From Pseudophaeomoniella oleicola (Eukaryota; Ascomycota; Eurotiomycetes; Phaeomoniellales; Phaeomoniellaceae), in contig QWDQ01000097.1 in the NCBI GenBank assembly GCA_003868215.1, positions 1 through 30,894 of the forward strand: a stretch of DNA of 30,894 nucleotides. Direction: 5' to 3'. The stretch's first letter is position 1, and each line of letters starts with the position of its first letter. The notes under the pieces were generated by a model that had not been told where the DNA came from, did not search any database, and saw only the letters and a list, made by a program, of their open reading frames with translations. Below, piece by piece: positions 557 to 29,139 of this stretch. The position numbers and the translations under genes are program-made.

Positions 557-2611
557 TTAAATTTTTTGTTCTTTTACTAAAATATTAGTTTTAAAGCTAG
601 TTATTTGTTTTACAGTAAAAGGCATCAAATCTTTAGTTTTTAAACTAATAAATAATATAAATAATATTAGTAAAAATAAAGAGTTATTAACATGAGCAAA
701 AGCAAAAATAGAAATATAACTAACTAAACCTATTAAAATATATAAAGCATAAGTAGTTACTACTCCTGTACTTAAACTATCAATATTTTTACTTAATTTA
801 CCTAAGAAATTTTCTAAACCGAAGGGTCCAAAACGTTCAACAGAACCTTTATCCATAATTACAGTTGTTTGTCCACCTAATGTAAGTATACCTTCTGTAA
901 TATATTTATTGTAATAATGATCAACCATAAAACGTTGATTTAAAAAACCATAAATATTATAACCTGTATTAGAGAATTTAAAATTTATTATTAAATTAGG
1001 ATAAAATTCAGATAAGACAATATAAATAGTAAATAAAGAAATAGTAAAAAAGAAAGGTAATAATTTAAAGAATGTAGGTACAGCAAATTCAGTATCTAAT
1101 AATATTTCATGATTAGGATGAATAAATAAGCTATTGTCTGAAAAGAAACCTGAAGCAAGACCTACATATATATCTTTAGTTATATAACCAAAGAATATAG
1201 AAAATATAGCTAATATAACTAAAGGAGTACTCATAAAAATATCACCTTCATGAGCGTGTGAAGCTTTAGATTTTGTTTTATAATTTATTAAAGGTCCATT
1301 AGGATTACCTAAAAAAGTTAAATATAAAACTTTAGCTGAGTAAAGAGTAGTAAACATAGCTCCAATAGTAGCTACAAAATATACTATTATACTAGAATAA
1401 TCTGATTTACCAAAAGCAGATTCTATAATTAAATCTTTAGAATAATAACCAGTCATAAAAGGTATGGCTACTAAACTTAAAGAAGCAATAAGCATTACAG
1501 AATAAGTTAAAGGTAAATAAGATATTAATCCACCATATTTTCTAAAATCTTGATTATCAGCTACTGCATGAATTACTGCTCCAGCCCCTAAGAATAATAA
1601 AGCTTTATAAAATGCATGATTTATTAAATGAAATAATGCTATATTATAAGAAGATAAACCTATAGCTATAACCATCATACCTAATTGACTCATAGTAGAA
1701 TAAGCTATTACTTTTTTAATATCTTGTTGAAATAATCCTATTAATGAACTAAATACAGTTGTAATAGCACCTATTCATAAACAAAGCATTAAAACAGTAG
1801 TACTATATTCTATTAAGGGACTACTACGCATTAATAAATATACTCCGGCTGTAACCATAGTTGCAGCATGAATTAAAGCACTAACAGGTGTAGGACCTTC
1901 CATAGCAAGAGGTAATCATACATGTAACCCTACTTGTGAACTTTTTGCCATAGCACCTATTAATAAACATATACCTATTACAGTTATTACATTTTCACTA
2001 AAATAAGGTGCTAATGAAAAAACTGTATAATAATCTATATTACCAAATGATCATAATATTGCAAACATACCTATAGTTAATAAACAATCTCCTACTCTAT
2101 TAGTTAAAAATGCTGAAATAGAACTTTGATTAGCTGCTATTCTTGTAAATCAGAAACTAACTAAAAGATATGAACATACTCCAACTCCTTCTCAACCTAC
2201 AAACATTAATAAAAAATTATTAGATGTTACTAATATTATCATCATAAATGTAAATAAGCTTAAATAACTGAAAAATCTTTGGTTATGTGGATCATGACTC
2301 ATATAACCTATTGAATATATATGAACTAGTGATGATACTATTAATACTGGTATTAACATTGACACTGTTAATGAATCAAAATTAAAACCTCATGATACAT
2401 TAAGATATTCTGAATCTATTCATCTAAATAAATGAATTGTTATAGGTATATTATTAAATCCTACTTCAAAATATGTTAATATAGCTAATGTAGTTGTTGT
2501 AATAACAAATAGGCATGTTATTATTTGAGCACCTGTAACACCTATTTTTCTACCGAAAAATCCTGAAACTATTGAACCTAATAATGGTAACACAATCAAA
2601 GCTAAATACAT
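557..2611 (-). CDS. nad5: NADH dehydrogenase subunit 5
   Basis: This is one of the proton-pumping, antiporter-like membrane subunits of complex I in the inner membrane. The frame of 684 codons is continuous only under code 4, since several conserved Trp positions are TGA. The protein has many membrane segments and typical nad5 blocks, such as [23 protein letters not shown] around the functional lysine and histidine, followed by FRKYGGL. The start ATG shares its first base with the last base of the nad4L TAA, the arrangement seen across filamentous ascomycetes, which fixes the start. The length is close to the usual 650-690 aa. The C terminus (VKEQKI) ends at TAA, and the frame then remains open for another 81 codons. 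Confidence 0.97.
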
Positions 2612-2877
2612 TAATAATTTATAGCTATACTTCCTCTTAATCTATAGAAAGCTACTAATATTCCTAAACCTATAGCTGATTCTGCACCAGCTATTGCTAT
2701 TATATATATAGAAAATGTTTGGCCTAGTATGTCATCAAAGCTAAGTGATGTTATCAATACTAAAAATGTTATTGATAATAACATTATTTCTATCGATATT
2801 AATAATAATATTATATTTTTTCTGTTTAATACAAAACCTAAAATTCCTATTAAAAATAAAATTATTGATAATCTCAT
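2611..2877 (-). CDS. nad4L: NADH dehydrogenase subunit 4L
   Basis: This is a small three-helix membrane subunit of complex I (88 aa), homologous to bacterial NuoK. The sequence shows the family pattern: three hydrophobic helices, [10 protein letters not shown] in the second helix carrying the conserved Glu, and [17 protein letters not shown] with the second conserved Glu. The length is normal (about 89 aa). It precedes nad5 with a one-base stop/start overlap, implying a shared transcript and coupled translation. tRNA-His lies 49 bases upstream. Confidence 0.97.
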
Positions 2878-2925
2878 TATATTTTTTACTATAGATCAAA
2901 TTATGGGGTATGCCGAAAATGAGAG

Positions 2926-2997
2926 GGGGGATACCTTGAATCGAACAAGGACATACTGTACCACAAACAGTTGTTCTACCTTTGAACTATATCCGCC
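2926..2997 (-). tRNA. trnH: tRNA-His (GTG)
   Basis: The cloverleaf has a five-pair anticodon stem (ACTGT/ACAGT) with loop TTGTGGT, giving anticodon GTG. The T stem is CCTTG/CAAGG. The acceptor stem has one C-C mismatch at the second pair, and the extra 5' G typical of tRNA-His is present. It lies next to nad4L and marks the downstream edge of the foreign-looking insert. Confidence 0.9.
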
Positions 2998-3039
2998 TTT
3001 GTATTAAATGCCTTATTAGTAATAATGATTTAATAATGA

Positions 3040-3300
3040 CTAATGATTACGTAATGATAACATAGTGATGTGATAAAAATAACATAGTGATAATGTACAA
3101 TGACGTCATGATGACTAATGATTACGTAATGATAACTAATGACGATGTAATCATGATGACTAATAATTACGACATCTTGATAACTAATGATGACTAATGG
3201 TGATGACGTAATAACAATGACGTAATAACTATTACGTCATAATGATGACTAATGATGATGTAATAGTGGTGACGTAATAGTAGTGACGTAGTAGTAGTGA
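3040..3300. repeat. Degenerate short repeats with ACGT cores (bZIP-site-like)
   Basis: There are many variants of TGACGTAA, TTACGTCA, ATTACGTAAT and one TGACGTCA, interspersed with ATGATGACTAATG words. TGACGTCA and TTACGTAA are the palindromes recognised by ATF/CREB-type and Yap/PAR-type bZIP proteins in nuclei. The array is irregular and not a clean tandem. It may be a nuclear upstream activating region or simply a low-complexity expansion of a TGATGACGTAAT-like unit. Open frames through it on the minus strand are His/Tyr/Thr repeats and not believable genes. Confidence 0.6.
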
Positions 3301-3313
3301 CGTAGTAGTGATT

Positions 3314-3364
3314 ACAAATAATGATGTAATGCTGACAAATAATGATGTAATGCTGACAAATGCT
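3314..3364. repeat. 21-bp tandem repeat, 2.4 copies
   Basis: The unit ACAAATAATGATGTAATGCT plus G occurs twice exactly (3314-3334 and 3335-3355), followed by a nine-base partial copy. It sits directly before the 22-bp palindrome, inside the foreign-looking insert. Confidence 0.9.
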
Positions 3365-3366
3365 AA

Positions 3367-3388
3367 CATATGATGATATCATCATATG
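3367..3388. repeat. 22-bp perfect palindrome
   Basis: The half-site CATATGATGAT is followed without spacer by its exact reverse complement. The palindrome has no central loop, so it resembles a protein-binding or recombination site more than an RNA hairpin. It lies between the 21-bp tandem repeat and the TATA-like box of the plus-strand ORF. Confidence 0.85.
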
Positions 3389-3447
3389 ACTCACAAAAAA
3401 TTTTCACATGATAACCTGTTTTCCATTTGCCACCTTAAGGTAAACAC

Positions 3448-3455
3448 TATAAATA
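3448..3455 (+). promoter_or_regulatory. TATA-like box upstream of the plus-strand ORF
   Basis: TATAAATA stands 110 bases before the ATG at 3565, followed by a pyrimidine-rich stretch and the CTTCATT microsatellite. This layout (TATA box, CT-rich tract, A at -3 of the ATG) is that of a nuclear RNA polymerase II promoter in filamentous fungi, not of mitochondrial promoters. In AT-rich DNA a TATA string is weak evidence, but the local composition here is less AT-rich. Confidence 0.45.
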
Positions 3456-3493
3456 AGAGGTACTTCCCTTAGATTTTTTTTCTGATTCCTCTT

Positions 3494-3535
3494 CTTCATT
3501 CTTCATTCTTCATTCTTCATTCTTCATTCTTCATT
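3494..3535 (+). repeat. Heptamer microsatellite (CTTCATT)x6
   Basis: There are six perfect tandem copies of CTTCATT. On the coding strand of the 248-aa ORF this is a pyrimidine-rich tract 30 bases before the start codon, where nuclear fungal genes often have CT-rich transcription initiation regions. Confidence 0.95.
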
Positions 3536-3564
3536 TACCAAAACTCGCAAGTTTTATTATCAAG

Positions 3565-4311
3565 ATGTCTTCCCACAATCCCAACACAAACGATGAACAA
3601 TCACCCAGAACCCCTCGACAGTCTGACTATACTCGTTTCGTACGTGATGATGACGAATACCATGTCGACAATGAACCTATCGAATACCCACCAGGTTTAC
3701 CTCAAATACCTGCCGGATACGCAAATGAGTATCATGGATACTCAACCAGCACCGGCGCTTTTACCATCAACGTTTCCCACCACAGATACATGAGCAGACT
3801 TCATGTATTTCTGAACTCAATCATTGAAGACGGCCAACGTGTGGCGGATTTCTATGAAAGAGGAGCTTTTACTGCTTCATATATGGGAGTTTTCAACAAC
3901 GACAATACATTCGCCGCAATTGCAGTTTCCTGCCCAAACCGTGTATTTCTCTATGAATCACTTGTTACACTCAAAAGACTATCGCAACATGTGGGACCTC
4001 GCGTTTCTCTCATAGTCATGGTGGGAGAATTGGTGGGGTTCTATTATAATCACGAAACTGCACAAATACCGGTTGATCGTTTGGGGGATGTACACTTTGT
4101 TAACGGTTTGGATTACATTGTACCATTGCCAACACCACCATTAGCTGTTCTCTTTCAACATGCGGTTGAGCAAGAAATGGCTTCTGGTTATCAAACTCTC
4201 AAATGTTATTTTAGAGATGGTACGGTTCGTGTAACTGGTGTTTTCTTTCTCACCACTTTTGCTGGAAACGAAGAGATTATGAAAAGATGTGCTTTTAGAG
4301 GAGGGATGTAA
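3565..4311 (+). CDS. Unrecognised plus-strand ORF, 248 aa, nuclear-like
   Basis: This is the only convincing plus-strand gene. The protein starts MSSHNPNTNDEQSPRTP. About 50 N-terminal residues are polar, acidic and Pro-rich, probably disordered. A compact domain from about residue 60 follows, with alternating hydrophobic strands (RVSLIVMVGELVGFYY, VRVTGVFFLTTFAGNE) and no membrane helix. I recognise no family. It contains no tryptophan, so TGA usage cannot show which code it was written for. Third positions use C and G far more than neighbouring genes, and codons such as CTC and CGC occur. The ATG context (TCAAGATGTC) is a good nuclear fungal start. The stop is followed within about 35 bases by tRNA-Gln, so the insert may be cut at its 3' side. 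Expression is unproven. Confidence 0.6.
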   Translation: MSSHNPNTNDEQSPRTPRQSDYTRFVRDDDEYHVDNEPIEYPPGLPQIPAGYANEYHGYSTSTGAFTINVSHHRYMSRLHVFLNSIIEDGQRVADFYERGAFTASYMGVFNNDNTFAAIAVSCPNRVFLYESLVTLKRLSQHVGPRVSLIVMVGELVGFYYNHETAQIPVDRLGDVHFVNGLDYIVPLPTPPLAVLFQHAVEQEMASGYQTLKCYFRDGTVRVTGVFFLTTFAGNEEIMKRCAFRGGM

Positions 4312-4345
4312 TTTGATCTAAAGTAGCCAGATAGGAATAACAACT

Positions 4346-4418
4346 TTATGTTGGAGCGATTCGAACACTCATAGCTAAATACCAAAAATTTATGACTTAC
4401 CTATTAGTCTACAACATA
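4346..4418 (-). tRNA. trnQ: tRNA-Gln (TTG)
   Basis: The acceptor stem is perfect (TATGTTG/CAACATA), the anticodon stem is TAAAT/ATTTA with loop TTTTGGT giving TTG, and the T stem is GAGTG/CGCTC. It is the upstream flank (in minus-strand order) of the foreign-looking insert. Confidence 0.94.
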
Positions 4419-4466
4419 CTTAACTATTTATCTATTATAATTAAATTAATTTATTTATTTTTTAAT

Positions 4467-4550
4467 TATAGGTGACAAGACTTGAACTTGTAAAGTGTTA
4501 TACCATTTCGACCTAAGCGAAACCTGTTTACCAAATTTCAGCACACCTAT
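4467..4550 (-). tRNA. trnL: tRNA-Leu (TAG)
   Basis: Type II tRNA with a long variable arm. The acceptor is ATAGGTG/CACCTAT, the anticodon stem TTTCG/CGAAA and the loop CTTAGGT, giving TAG for CUN leucine codons. Confidence 0.94.
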
Positions 4551-4569
4551 TAAAATTTTTAATTTTACT

Positions 4570-4642
4570 TGCTCGAGGTAAGATTTGAACTTACAACCTA
4601 AACATCTTCAGTGTTCCGCTCAACCAATTGAGCTTCTCGAGC
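4570..4642 (-). tRNA. trnF: tRNA-Phe (GAA)
   Basis: The acceptor is GCTCGAG/CTCGAGC and the anticodon loop CTGAAGA gives GAA. It has a normal D arm and T arm. It belongs to the conserved Phe-Leu-Gln run downstream of rrnL. Confidence 0.94.
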
Positions 4643-5091
4643 GTAAATTCATAACTTATATATTACTTTAAAGAATATTTTTATATAAGGGTATAATTAG
4701 AAAAATTAATTACTATTACATATTTCCAAAAAGTAATATTAACATAAATAAATACTGAATATAGCATTAAAATGTTTATCAATCATAATATCACTAATTA
4801 AATTAGTTATAACAGTACTTAAAGCATCAGTTTTACATCACCAACAATATTCCCACTAAAAAATAAATCAAACTCATTTAGTATAATATGCTAAATTCAT
4901 TTTTGATTTTATTCAATACGAACATGATTTGTCTCTTTACCTAGAATAATAAGTTGACTGAGAAGATATACCAACTTTTTTTTATTATTTTTATTTCAAA
5001 TAATTCTTATACTGACTTTATATAGAACATTATTTTTAATTAAACTATTGATTGTAACAAACCATAAATATTTATGTAAAAAGAGACAAGC
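4643..5091 (-). other. AT-rich spacer with decayed ORF fragments
   Basis: This 449-base stretch between tRNA-Cys and tRNA-Phe has no intact gene. Under code 4 the minus strand shows short open stretches in two frames, one including VYLLSQLIILGKETNHVRIE and another TDALSTVITNLISDIMIDKH. They look more protein-like than random AT sequence, suggesting the remains of one accessory ORF. The family is not recognised. No tRNA, hairpin or repeat of note was seen. Confidence 0.4.
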
Positions 5092-5164
5092 CAGGAATAT
5101 GGAGGAATCGAACCTCAAATCAATGATCTGCAATCAAATAGCAAACCATTTGCTTCATATTCCT
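5092..5164 (-). tRNA. trnC: tRNA-Cys (GCA)
   Basis: The acceptor is AGGAATA/TATTCCT, the anticodon loop TTGCAGA gives GCA, and the T stem is GAGG/CCTC. The anticodon stem is weak at its outer pairs. Confidence 0.88.
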
Positions 5165-5172
5165 TTATCAAT

Positions 5173-5243
5173 CAAGAGCACTTAGATTTGAACTAAGACC
5201 AGGAAGTTTGAAGCTTCTTATTCTGCCATTAAACTATACTCTT
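5173..5243 (-). tRNA. trnW: tRNA-Trp (TCA), reads UGA
   Basis: The acceptor is AAGAGTA/TGCTCTT with a G-T pair and the anticodon loop CTTCAAA gives TCA. A TCA anticodon reads UGA and UGG as tryptophan. It is direct evidence for genetic code 4 and explains the in-frame TGA codons in the core genes. Confidence 0.94.
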
Positions 5244-5303
5244 TATTGGTCTTTCTAATTTTACATTAAAAATTCTTATAACAAAAGATGAGTTAATATT
5301 ACA

Positions 5304-5384
5304 CGGAAAGAAGATGAATCGAACATCTAGGTGAAAATACACAATATTTAGCAAATATCTCGCCTTACCAATGGCAACCTTTCC
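5304..5384 (-). tRNA. trnS: tRNA-Ser (GCT)
   Basis: Type II tRNA with a long variable arm. The acceptor is GGAAAG/CTTTCC, the anticodon stem GATAT/ATATT and the loop TTGCTAA, giving GCT for AGY serine codons. Confidence 0.92.
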
Positions 5385-5412
5385 ATATTTATTTTTTATA
5401 AAAATAATAAAA

Positions 5413-5485
5413 CGAGTTAGACCGGCTCCGACCCGGCATCTATTTCCTCGACAAGGAAACCCTTTACCAATTAAGTTACTAACTC
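5413..5485 (-). tRNA. trnD: tRNA-Asp (GTC)
   Basis: The acceptor is GAGTTAG/CTAACTC, the anticodon stem TTTCC/GGAAA and the loop TTGTCGA, giving GTC. The T stem GCCGG/CCGGT is unusually GC-rich for this genome. Two bases separate it from tRNA-Pro. Confidence 0.93.
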
Positions 5486-5487
5486 TT

Positions 5488-5559
5488 TCGGATTATTATG
5501 ATTCGAACATAACAATTCCTCAACCCAAATGAGGCGCCTAACCACCTGGCTCTAATCCG
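5488..5559 (-). tRNA. trnP: tRNA-Pro (TGG)
   Basis: The acceptor is CGGATTA/TAATCCG, the anticodon stem CCTCA/TGAGG and the loop TTTGGGT, giving TGG. It is tightly packed between tRNA-Ala and tRNA-Asp. Confidence 0.95.
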
Positions 5560-5564
5560 TAAGA

Positions 5565-5636
5565 TGGAAATATTAGGAATCGAACCTAAAATAACGACGT
5601 GCAAAGTCGCCGTTTTACCAATTAAACTATACCCCC
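5565..5636 (-). tRNA. trnA: tRNA-Ala (TGC)
   Basis: The acceptor is GGGGGTA/TATTTCC with several G-T pairs, the anticodon loop TTTGCAC gives TGC, and the stem is GCGAC/GTCGT. It is the first tRNA after orf411. In related fungi tRNA-Ala usually follows tRNA-Leu directly. Confidence 0.92.
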
Positions 5637-5693
5637 TTGCCCTGAAAAAGAGCATAGCCTAGGCCGTATATAATAAATTTATTACAATATTGG

Positions 5694-5708
5694 AGTCTCA
5701 CTTACTAA
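5694..5708 (-). promoter_or_regulatory. 15-bp element shared by the 3' flanks of orf411 and cox2
   Basis: AGTCTCACTTACTAA occurs here and exactly again at 18405-18419. On the minus strand the two copies stand about 50 bases downstream of the stops of orf411 and cox2 respectively. The similar placement suggests an RNA 3'-end or processing signal, by inference only. Confidence 0.4.
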
Positions 5709-5757: not shown

Positions 5758-6993
5758 TTAGTCATCACCTCCAAATCAATCACTCATTTCTGAATTTACA
5801 TCAGCAAAATCATCAATTAGTGATCCTTTTTCTTTTTTGTCGGAAAATAAATTTTTCATATCTTCTCCCCTATCAGGAAAATCTTTACTTAATGAATCAT
5901 TTGATGAAGTATTATTTGATTTATTAACATCCATTTCAGTATTATTTGATTTATCTACATCCATTTCAGTATTATTTGATTTATCTTCTTCCATTTCAGT
6001 ATTATTTAATTTATCTTCTTCTACTGTTACATCAAATTGATCTTCTTTTTCTTTTTTTACTGTATTATCCACTTCTTGAGTAGATTTCATTGATAATCTT
6101 ATTGCTTTTTCTAAATCAGAATCATAGTCTATATCTTCATATACAGGAGTATTATTATTATTATTCTCAGTTTGGTTTTCTTCTATAGCATTATTTGCCA
6201 TAAGTTGAGGATCCATTGATAATTTTAATGCTTTTTGTAAATCAGAATCATAGTCGTCATCTGATTGATAACTTAATAAATTTTTCTCATCATCGGATTG
6301 ATACTCTAATAATTTTTGTTCATGCAATGCTTTTTCTAAATCTACTTTAGATAAAGATTTCATATAATTATTATAATCATTAGGATTAAAGGTAGGAGAA
6401 GTAGGATCAAAGATTATTTTTGTAGGTGTAGAGTTAGTATTAAGGTTAGAATCTTGATTAGTATCATTAGAATTATTAGATTCTAATATATTACTTGTGG
6501 TATCCAAGTTAAGATTAGACTCCATTTTTTTATTTAATATGCTTTCTAAGTCTTTATTATCAATTTCCGTTTTCCATTTTTTACTTTCATTCTCTACATG
6601 TCCTTCCCATTTATCTGCTGCTCTTTTTTTTAATTTATTAACAGCAGATTCAGGCATATCAGATCGTCATGGTGTACTTAATCCACTAAGTTTACGTTCG
6701 TAAATTTCAGAAAATTTAGTATCTGAAGATGTTCCAGTATCTTTTATATAATCTAAATAATTTTTGGTAACATCTTCATCCAATTCTTTTCTTTTTTCAG
6801 TATATATTTTTCATCCTGCTTCTAATACGGGTTTATTTTCTTCATAAAACTCCTCATCTCATTTTTTAACATCCTCTTCAGTTGCTTTACCTTTACCTTT
6901 GTGATTAGTTGTTTCCTCCTCATTTGATCTATCAATATCTTCTTGAGTAGTTTTGGTTTTACCTTTGTCGTTACTTGTATTTTTTTTTAACAT
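5758..6993 (-). CDS. orf411, acidic protein with two ubiquitin-interacting-motif-like segments
   Basis: This is a code-4 frame of 411 codons with TGA as Trp at several sites (EDVKKWDEEF, STPWRSDM, SDWFGGDD), so it is adapted to this mitochondrion. The protein is hydrophilic and low-complexity with no membrane segment. The N terminus is Lys-rich. Residues about 249-261 (DSDLQKALKLSMD) and 291-302 (DSDLEKAIRLSM) fit the ubiquitin-interacting motif: acidic lead, Leu, Ala three residues on, Ser four further. A weaker third lies near 216-226. Residues about 325-362 are 10-residue acidic repeats around NNTEMDVDKS. The start is chosen because 57 bp of nad4 leader is copied just before it. It lies between tRNA-Leu and tRNA-Ala. 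I recognise no full-length homologue; ubiquitin binding is only a motif-based guess. Confidence 0.75.
5908..6021 (-). repeat. 30-bp tandem repeats inside orf411
   Basis: About 3.8 near-identical 30-bp units, based on TTATTTGATTTATCTACATC, encode the 10-residue acidic repeat NNTEMxxDKS. High identity points to recent slippage or selection for the acidic array. Confidence 0.85.
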
Positions 6994-7000
6994 TTTTATT

Positions 7001-7057
7001 TTATTTTTAAATTTTCTTACCTGTATTTTAACCTTATTTATCAATAAGGTCTTTATT
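7001..7057 (-). repeat. Copy of the nad4 leader upstream of orf411
   Basis: These 57 bases are identical to 18036-18092, the leader of nad4. Each copy ends 8 bases before the respective ATG. The block includes a small hairpin (ACCTTATT, then a TATC loop, then AATAAGGT). It probably carries transcription, processing or translational-activator signals, letting orf411 be expressed like nad4. The direction of copying (nad4 to orf411) is inferred from nad4 being the conserved gene. Confidence 0.92.
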
Positions 7058-7103
7058 GAATAATTGTTATTATTCAATTTCTGATCATTCCAAAATTTAT
7101 AAT

Positions 7104-18464: not shown

Positions 18465-19184
18465 TTATGCACCTATTAAATCATATAATCAGTATAAGAA
18501 TTTATTTAAACTTACACTTTGTATAGCAATAGGCATAGAACTATGTAAAATTCCACATATTTCTGAACATTGTCCAAAATATGTACCTTCTCTATTTAAA
18601 TAAACAGAAGATTGGTTTAATCTTCCAGGGTAAGCATCAGTTTTAATACCTAAAGCAGGGCAAGCAAAAGAATGTATAACGTCAGCAGCAGATACTACAA
18701 AACGAGTGTGTGTTAATTCAGGTATTATAACTCTATTATCAACTTCTAACATTCTAAGAGTACCTTCTTCTAAATCACTTTCAGGGACAATATAAGAATC
18801 AAATTCTATATATTCATCATCAATATTTGTAAAATCGGGATATTGGTAACTTCAATATCATTGATGTCCCTCACCATATATAACTAAAGCAGGGTCAATA
18901 ACTTCATCCATTAAATATAATAATTTAAATGAAGGGAATGCTATTAATATAAGAATTAAAGCTGGAGTTATTGTCCATATTAGTTCAATCAATGTACCAT
19001 GATTTACATATTTATTAGATATCTTTTTTTTAGAATATGTTAAAACTATAGAGAAGAATATTCAAGTAACAGAAAACAGAATAATAGTTAAATAAAAGAA
19101 AATATTATTATGTAATTCTTCCAATCCTTCCATTTGAGGTGTAGCACTATCTTGGAAAAATATACCTCAAGGTTCTGGAGCATC
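18465..19184 (-). CDS. cox2: Cytochrome c oxidase subunit 2 part of a cox1-cox2 fused frame
   Basis: Subunit 2 of complex IV carries the binuclear CuA centre that receives electrons from cytochrome c. The region begins [20 protein letters not shown], where free-standing fungal cox2 has its Met. It has two membrane helices, then the CuA domain with [18 protein letters not shown] (two Cys, Glu, His, Met ligands). It ends LYWLYDLIGA, the last Trp being TGA. The segment is about 239 aa. No ATG or stop separates it from cox1: the frame continues from SPPKPHAFVSLPLQS through a short linker (LLGVSLIFNKTEL). It is presumably made as a fusion and cleaved, or started at a non-ATG codon. Confidence 0.95.
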
Positions 19185-20831
<1,647 letters not shown>

Positions 20832-25561: not shown

Positions 25562-25855
<294 letters not shown>

Positions 25856-27852: not shown

Positions 27853-29139
27853 TTATCTTGCCGTTCTAGGTTTGATATGTAATATTAAATTAGAAGGACT
27901 TTTACTTTCGAAATATAAAACTTTATCTGGAGTAGTTGTTCAATTAGCCTGAATTATTGATCTAGCCGCTACATTACCAACAAAGATATCGTTATCTAGT
28001 TCTGCAGTTCTTATCCCTCCCTTAGAATATGTAAACTTTGTACATTTAACTTCAAGACCATCTTCCAATTTCTTTTGAACTACTTCCATAGGAAAACGTC
28101 TAGAAGGTGACACTAGCGCATAATGCATAGGAGAATCTGTAGGATGGTTTCTATCAAAAAGATATAATTCTATGGTCTCATCATCATTTCTTTCTATAAC
28201 ATAATCTGCTAATATTATTCTAGGTGCAGGAACTGGTGCTGGTGCAGGTGCAATAGGTACATATGAAATTGGACGCGGTGGTGTTTCGGGGAACTCTACA
28301 GTAATGTCTGTACTTGCACGGACTAAAGCTTCAAATTGATCAATATTTCCTGCTAAACTTTTTAAAGAACCATGAGGTACACTTCTCATAGAACGTGCTG
28401 TAGGATTAGTTGGTGCATTTGGTGCATTTGGTACATTTGGTGCATTTGGTGTATCAGGTACATTTGGTACATTTGATGCATCAGGTATATTTGGAATATT
28501 TGGAGCATTAGGTATATTTGGTGAATCAATAGGATTTAATAAACTTGATATAGATAGTACTCTTAATGGTTCTGGTAAACTTGGTACAGTTGGCATTCTT
28601 GGTACTAATCCTGGGCTTAGACTTGATCCTGAACTTGATCCTGAACTTGATCCTACGTTTGATCCTGCGTTTGAATTTGCAAAGTTTATAATGCTTGATA
28701 TATTTCGTTCAATATCATTCATAATATTATTATCATTGTGAGTTGCTAAACAATTGGCTAATTGTTCCATTCCTAAAAATTTATTAATATTATGAAACAT
28801 ATAAATAATATAATTTATACCTTCATCCGATCTAATATATTCTATAAATAAATAACCAAGTAACATAAGTAATAGATCGAAAATAATCATATATTTAATA
28901 TTTAAAGTAAATATTATACATACAACTATAAAAAGAATAATTACTGGTATTATTAAGTTTAAAGTAAATATATTTATTAAAGATGAATAGAAAGTAAATT
29001 TATATATTGCACAAAAAATAATTTTTAGGCCTAAACAAGCTAAAGATATAGCCAACGCTGTAATTAATTTATTTTTAACTTGTAATCTAGGTAGATAGCT
29101 ATATTTATTTACTTTCGTAAATAAATCTTTAGACTTCAC
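27853..29139 (-). CDS. orf428, membrane-anchored repeat protein of unknown function
   Basis: The frame begins at GTG five bases after the cob stop (no ATG before residue 83) and runs 428 codons under code 4, with a TGA-Trp in QANWTTTPDK. The N terminus is basic, then there are three hydrophobic helices (about residues 25-47, 52-80, 83-101). A Gly/Ser linker (GSSSGSSSGSS, near 163-173) leads to Pro-Asn-Ala repeats of the PNAPNVPN type (about 207-243) and PAPAPVPAPR (298-307). A more ordered C-terminal domain of about 120 residues follows (ERNDDETIELYLFDRNHP). It ends HIKPRTAR, where the nad1-like duplicate begins. The family is not recognised; an inner-membrane protein with an exposed tail is the likely topology. 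Confidence 0.65.
28409..28515 (-). repeat. 9-bp coding repeat (Pro-Asn-Ala type) in orf428
   Basis: Units related to GGTGCATTT/GGTACATTT/GGTATATTT are repeated about a dozen times, encoding PNA/PNV/PNI triplets. Slippage is the likely source; the frame is preserved throughout. Confidence 0.85.

Follow-up and report, generated by a model that had tools for sequence, protein, structure and literature searches.

The spacer between trnQ and trnH of the fungal mitochondrial genome analysed here holds an intact 248-codon reading frame, orf248, whose coding composition matches the nuclear genome rather than the mtDNA, if less strongly than that of the host's own nuclear ORFs. We give a probability of about one half to the reading that a DNA fragment with a nuclear-type gene was captured into this spacer. 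In all likelihood the block between the two tRNA genes is a genuine insertion, and the nuclear-like ORF in it is intact and has no known relative; we infer a nuclear donor and, less firmly, that a promoter was carried along.

The mitochondrial circle and its trnQ-trnH spacer

The stretch of DNA that was analysed as a whole (the window; 30,894 bases) is contig C110 of a 26.1-Mb assembly of 112 contigs. It begins and ends with the same 77 bases and so closes to a circle of 30,817 bp. The mtDNA encodes rns and rnl (Rfam), 23 tRNAs (ARAGORN), nad1-6, nad4L, cob, cox1 and cox2 in one frame, cox3, atp6 and rps3, and it has an ATP-synt_C (atp9-like) match. Names other than those of Pfam and Rfam hits come from reading the translations, with the core genes backed by tblastn of the mtDNA against related loci. 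The minus strand carries all 23 of the ARAGORN tRNAs, the two rRNAs and the identified core genes. The single credible plus-strand gene is orf248 (3565-4311), and the initial annotation was right to single it out on both counts, as lying on the opposite strand and as the only gene there. Its 248 codons are part of a stop-free run of 284 codons; the longest frame was 161 codons in 1000 first-order shuffles of the block and 187 in 1000 shuffles of the ORF stretch, so that it is longer than any frame in all 2000.

Several other features of the circle deserve mention. It has no internal exact direct repeat of more than 66 bases; the longest, a perfect 66-base direct repeat at 25796 and 27709, has one copy adjoining the atp9-like gene and the other adjoining orf232. 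The continuous cox1-cox2 frame (18465-20831, minus strand) encodes 788 amino acids, and the atp9-like gene is kept at 25577-25765 (minus strand). A single cox1-cox2 frame is described in the available text of PMC5626475 for Stemphylium and other Pleosporales; the mtDNAs referred to there are alike in this respect and differ in lacking atp9. Orf439 (5758-7077, minus strand) is read in the mitochondrial code and has a tandem repeat with a 30-base unit in the 3' portion. Pfam scores a ubiquitin-interaction motif in it above the cut-off, which is odd for a protein made inside mitochondria. Orf428 (27853-29139, minus strand) has hydrophobic N-terminal stretches and a proline-/asparagine-rich middle built of a 27-base repeat, and a homology search with it gave no match at E<=1.

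The block lies between trnH(gtg) (2925-2996) and trnQ(ttg) (4346-4418), both on the minus strand and both found by ARAGORN and Rfam, and it parts them, as had been claimed; 1,349 bases lie between the two. From the left it consists of a degenerate AT-rich tandem array (3008-3400) with units of about 10-24, 14, 21 and 66 bases; a plus-strand TATA match, TATAAATA (3448-3455), at -117 from the ATG; a CT-rich tract on the plus strand (3480-3540), mostly TTCTTCA x6.3 (3492-3535); orf248; and a 34-base spacer (4312-4345) that separates the stop codon from trnQ. It is in this spacer or inside the end of the ORF that the right junction must be sought, and the donor gene may, as the initial annotation suggested, be cut at its 3' side. 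No direct repeat of at least 6 bases, such as a target-site duplication would leave, is common to 2986-3060 and 4296-4360.

The initial annotation gives trnQ and trnH as normally neighbours in Pezizomycotina. We scanned six related loci (L015-L020), filed under bacterial genomes or viral contigs and taken as fungal from identity and gene content, for tRNAs and found both genes in three of them. The two are 4 bp apart in L017 and separated by 190 AT-rich bp in L016; in L018 trnH follows trnL and trnQ lies elsewhere. (L015 has no tRNA, L019 only trnP, and L020 trnH without trnQ.) Thus trnQ and trnH are neighbours in two of the three informative loci, so that the claim of their usual adjacency stands for L016 and L017 and fails for L018, and the block is on this account an insertion or a strong local expansion. 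The insertion is absent from the orthologous spacer of L016 and L017, a comparison with two distant mtDNAs (nad5 identity 75% and 71%). The fungal-looking mtDNAs of L016, L017, L018, L019 and L020 stand in Mucilaginibacter, Tolypothrix, Nocardioides, Caulobacter and Fictibacillus records, presumably as contamination.

Composition of orf248 and of the DNA upstream

Orf248 has a GC content of 0.430, a GC3 of 0.35 and a CpG observed/expected ratio of 0.90; its codons include 8 CGN and 6 CTC, with no TGA and no TGG. The 16 other in-frame ORFs of the mtDNA (a table from which orf367 was left out) have GC3 values of 0.06-0.15, CpG ratios of 0-0.65 and no CTC. Synonymous codon choice in orf248 favours the nuclear over the mtDNA table by +0.349 log-odds per codon. 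The 16 mtDNA ORFs all score negatively (-0.36 to -0.79) and 16 of 16 nuclear ORFs score above orf248 (0.70-1.37); the tables were trained on nuclear ORFs and core mtDNA genes, which flatters the nuclear scores, and orf248 was kept out of the training. By third-order Markov log-odds, the nine windows that cover 3525-4274 score 0.052 to 0.112, and every one of them lies above the mtDNA 95% point (-0.018, n=195) and inside the 5-95% band of nuclear windows (0.033-0.212, n=726). Six of them exceed the highest mtDNA window (0.076) and three do not.

The overall GC of orf248 is one that nuclear DNA also shows: of 418 nuclear windows of 750 bp, 13 lie at or below 0.425. Its GC3 is lower than that of every one of 35 sampled nuclear ORFs (0.41-0.70), which were called mechanically from 110 kb at a length of at least 200 aa. 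GC at four-fold sites (36/118) lies between the nuclear (0.497) and mtDNA (0.049) values. Orf248 is alien to the mtDNA, yet it is no typical unmodified gene of the host nucleus.

This composition does not extend over the whole block. The log-odds switch to nuclear-like values near 3450-3525, and GC amounts to 25-33% in the 100-base windows that span 3008-3407, so that the initial annotation's GC-richer block with an abrupt change of composition holds for orf248 and not for the array. Array windows starting at 3000-3375 score -0.138 to -0.048, mtDNA-like or ambiguous: they lie between the mtDNA 5% and 95% points (-0.295 and -0.018), above the mtDNA median (-0.169), and fall short of the nuclear 5% point (0.033). 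The 450 bp upstream of orf248 are not nuclear-like in composition. This DNA has seven copies of the palindromic or near-palindromic TKACGTMA, which we take to be bZIP/CRE-like sites, in 433 bp (3008-3440), compared with one in the other 29,556 bp counted and none in a 73,048-bp nuclear sample. The 14-, 21- and 66-base units are duplicated in the array, and the seven sites are not independent because they were partly copied by tandem duplication. The idea that such arrays form a nuclear family was rejected, as the exact two-site pattern of the array occurs across the assembly in this block only. An inverted match of 13 bases, without a mismatch, links the array (3171-3183) with the start-codon region of orf248 (3557-3569); none of 100 shuffles reached it, their maximum being 12. 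Array and ORF also share a direct likeness of 17 bases, which was set aside as near chance (9 of 100 shuffles).

The supposed promoter features fare less well than the coding sequence. A TATA-like box had been counted as a mark of foreign origin, but in AT-rich DNA it is uninformative: of 806 plus-strand stretches of 100 bp, evenly spaced along the window, 294 contain TATAWA, compared with 1 of 30 nuclear ORF upstreams (-150 to -50), and the box was rejected as evidence. So was the allegedly nuclear-like start context, since no more than 11 of the 30 sampled nuclear ORFs have A at -3. The CT-rich tract does exist, with a maximum CT content of 0.88 per 50 bp before the ATG; of 806 stretches scanned on each strand, the block itself among them, 11 on the plus strand and 1 on the minus strand reach at least 0.8. 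It is, at the same time, richer in CT than any of the 30 nuclear upstreams (maximum 0.78; some of these 30 ORFs may be internal exons), and it is largely a perfect TTCTTCA microsatellite, of which a similar 7-base example lies at G000:C52:167469-167516. With the TATA match and start context uninformative, a CT tract that is unusual in both genomes and an mtDNA-like array, the promoter reading has little support.

Proposed capture of a nuclear-type gene and its alternatives

The protein has no counterpart elsewhere in the material searched. A search of the same strain's nuclear genome, proposed in the initial annotation, gave nothing: in the 26.1-Mb assembly, which may omit small contigs (the smallest of 20 listed has 10,685 bases), the orf248 protein matches the window only, with no nuclear copy or relative. 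The DNA of the block has no second place there save a 48-base, 90%-identity, microsatellite-like match on C52, and the flanks (2000-3015 and 4312-5700) have no nuclear copy that would show an empty site. Searches with the whole protein (246 candidates) and with residues 62-248 (312 candidates) gave no homologue at E<=1 and E<=10, respectively; no Pfam, PHROGs or NCBIfam family and no PDB sequence was matched, no relative appeared in viral_contigs (a search that finds close relatives only), and the other mtDNA ORFs of at least 60 residues show no similarity (best E 4.2). An AlphaFold2 single-sequence model is useless (mean pLDDT 32.9). No description of this block was found among titles and abstract openings in the open-licence literature searched.

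Capture, as we picture it, would have begun with a fragment carrying a nuclear-type (eukaryotic, standard-code) gene, which most plausibly entered the trnQ-trnH spacer when a break in a tRNA cluster was repaired by end joining. The donor would be a nuclear genome, which need not be the host's own, and the CT-rich tract a remnant of the donor gene's 5' leader; the AT-rich array may be a host-side expansion at the junction or DNA of the donor. Since orf248 faces against the identified mitochondrial genes, it is now probably silent cargo in the organelle, or mostly so. The mitochondrial tRNA set, as we read it, and the mitochondrial code could serve to translate orf248 if it were transcribed. Of the transfer of a nuclear gene together with its promoter, as first suggested, there is left a foreign, nuclear-like coding sequence in a closed circle, and the promoter part is weak.

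It is possible, if not our preference, that the gene arrived on a mobile replicon of non-nuclear kind, either virus-derived DNA or a mitochondrial plasmid, and belongs with the free-standing ORFs of no assigned function that are common in fungal mtDNA. Fungal mitogenomes average 8.2 unassigned ORFs, of which 35.51% are without known domains and some are plasmid-derived, according to the available portion of PMC8672057. The fruitless protein searches suit such an origin. So does the company that orf248 keeps: for orf439, orf232, orf428 and orf99, too, the six related loci (several of them partial) gave no match of at least 30 residues. These four ORFs, however, differ from orf248 in having GC3 values at the mitochondrial level (0.12-0.15) and codon scores like those of mtDNA. 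No polymerase family was found in the block or by Pfam in five ORFs of the window, no inverted repeat was found in the block that would join its two ends, and neither PHROGs nor, as far as close relatives go, viral_contigs offers a viral kin.

Another reading is that of an old transfer: the gene would now work in the mitochondrion, with purifying selection having held its frame and drift having cut its GC3. This seems to us doubtful. The intermediate GC at four-fold sites fits it, and simulated drift speaks for it. In 4500 runs, fragments of host nuclear DNA (45 of them, GC3 averaging 0.52, 248-codon frame) drifted neutrally towards mtDNA composition; once GC3 had come down to 0.351, the frame was still open in 0.27% of cases under code 4 and in 0.04% under the standard code. 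If orf248 descends from a typical host gene that arrived long ago, its open frame therefore implies selection, because neutral drift so rarely keeps it. What the low rates call for more generally is an AT-richer donor, a recent arrival or selection, and the first two fit the same data without the third. Half the drift (t = 0.2) leaves 6.5% (code 4) or 2.5% (standard code) of frames open, and a donor at the lowest sampled GC3 (0.41) would need roughly half (an estimate moved to another starting point). The protein has no tryptophan at all and so no TGA-for-Trp sign of adaptation, and orf248 is opposite in strand to the identified mitochondrial genes. The fuller version, in which a nuclear gene moved into the mtDNA, its nuclear copy was lost and it survives under selection as a functional gene on a strand with no other identified gene, we consider improbable.

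An assembly chimera of nuclear, contaminant and mtDNA sequence is unlikely. The composition break in the block is what misjoining might produce, and the 77-base terminal overlap suggests short-read k-mer assembly. Against this, two independent misjoins would be needed in a contig that closes on itself, the junctions share with nuclear contigs only the 48-base microsatellite-like match, and orf248 has no other place in the assembly, where the flanks and the block are otherwise unique. That orf248 is an ordinary mtDNA-resident ORF, arisen de novo in the spacer or diverged there beyond recognition, is hardly credible: the failure to find a homologue where one was sought and the mtDNA-like composition of the upstream array would agree with it, but its GC3 and CpG ratio are beyond the range of the 16 other in-frame ORFs and it resembles none of the mtDNA ORFs with which it was compared.

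Comparison with known gene gains by mitochondria

As a rule, mitochondria pass protein genes to nuclei, and a relocated functional gene, if that is what orf248 should turn out to be, would run against the usual direction. Capture of a nuclear-type coding insertion by a compact fungal mtDNA would offer a tractable case for the route by which DNA enters the organelle, and the same case would bear on whether a standard-code gene can turn functional in mtDNA.

Like the unassigned ORFs of fungal mitogenomes in the portion of PMC8672057 referred to, orf248 is intergenic and without a known domain; it differs from them in its nuclear-like codon usage and GC content, its opposite strand and its upstream tandem array. 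The four other unassigned ORFs tabulated for the same mtDNA look mitochondrial, unlike orf248. In flowering plants, DNA arriving from the nucleus is recognised as one cause of differences in mitogenome size, and the genes listed as gained by mitogenomes include some of nuclear origin (PMC7194472). Compared with these nucleus-to-mitochondrion transfers, the present case is fungal, the genome is compact (30.8 kb), a single intact ORF is involved and the nuclear donor is putative; we liken orf248 to a nuclear-derived insertion and do not claim its membership in that class as proven. Gene gain by mitochondria is called exceedingly rare in the accessible part of PMC8099122, and a katablepharid mtDNA, treated there, provides such a rare gain of foreign genes. 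The katablepharid restriction-modification genes are of bacterial origin, and their enzymes have been tested. Orf248, in contrast, is nuclear-like in composition and has no relative among the sequences searched.
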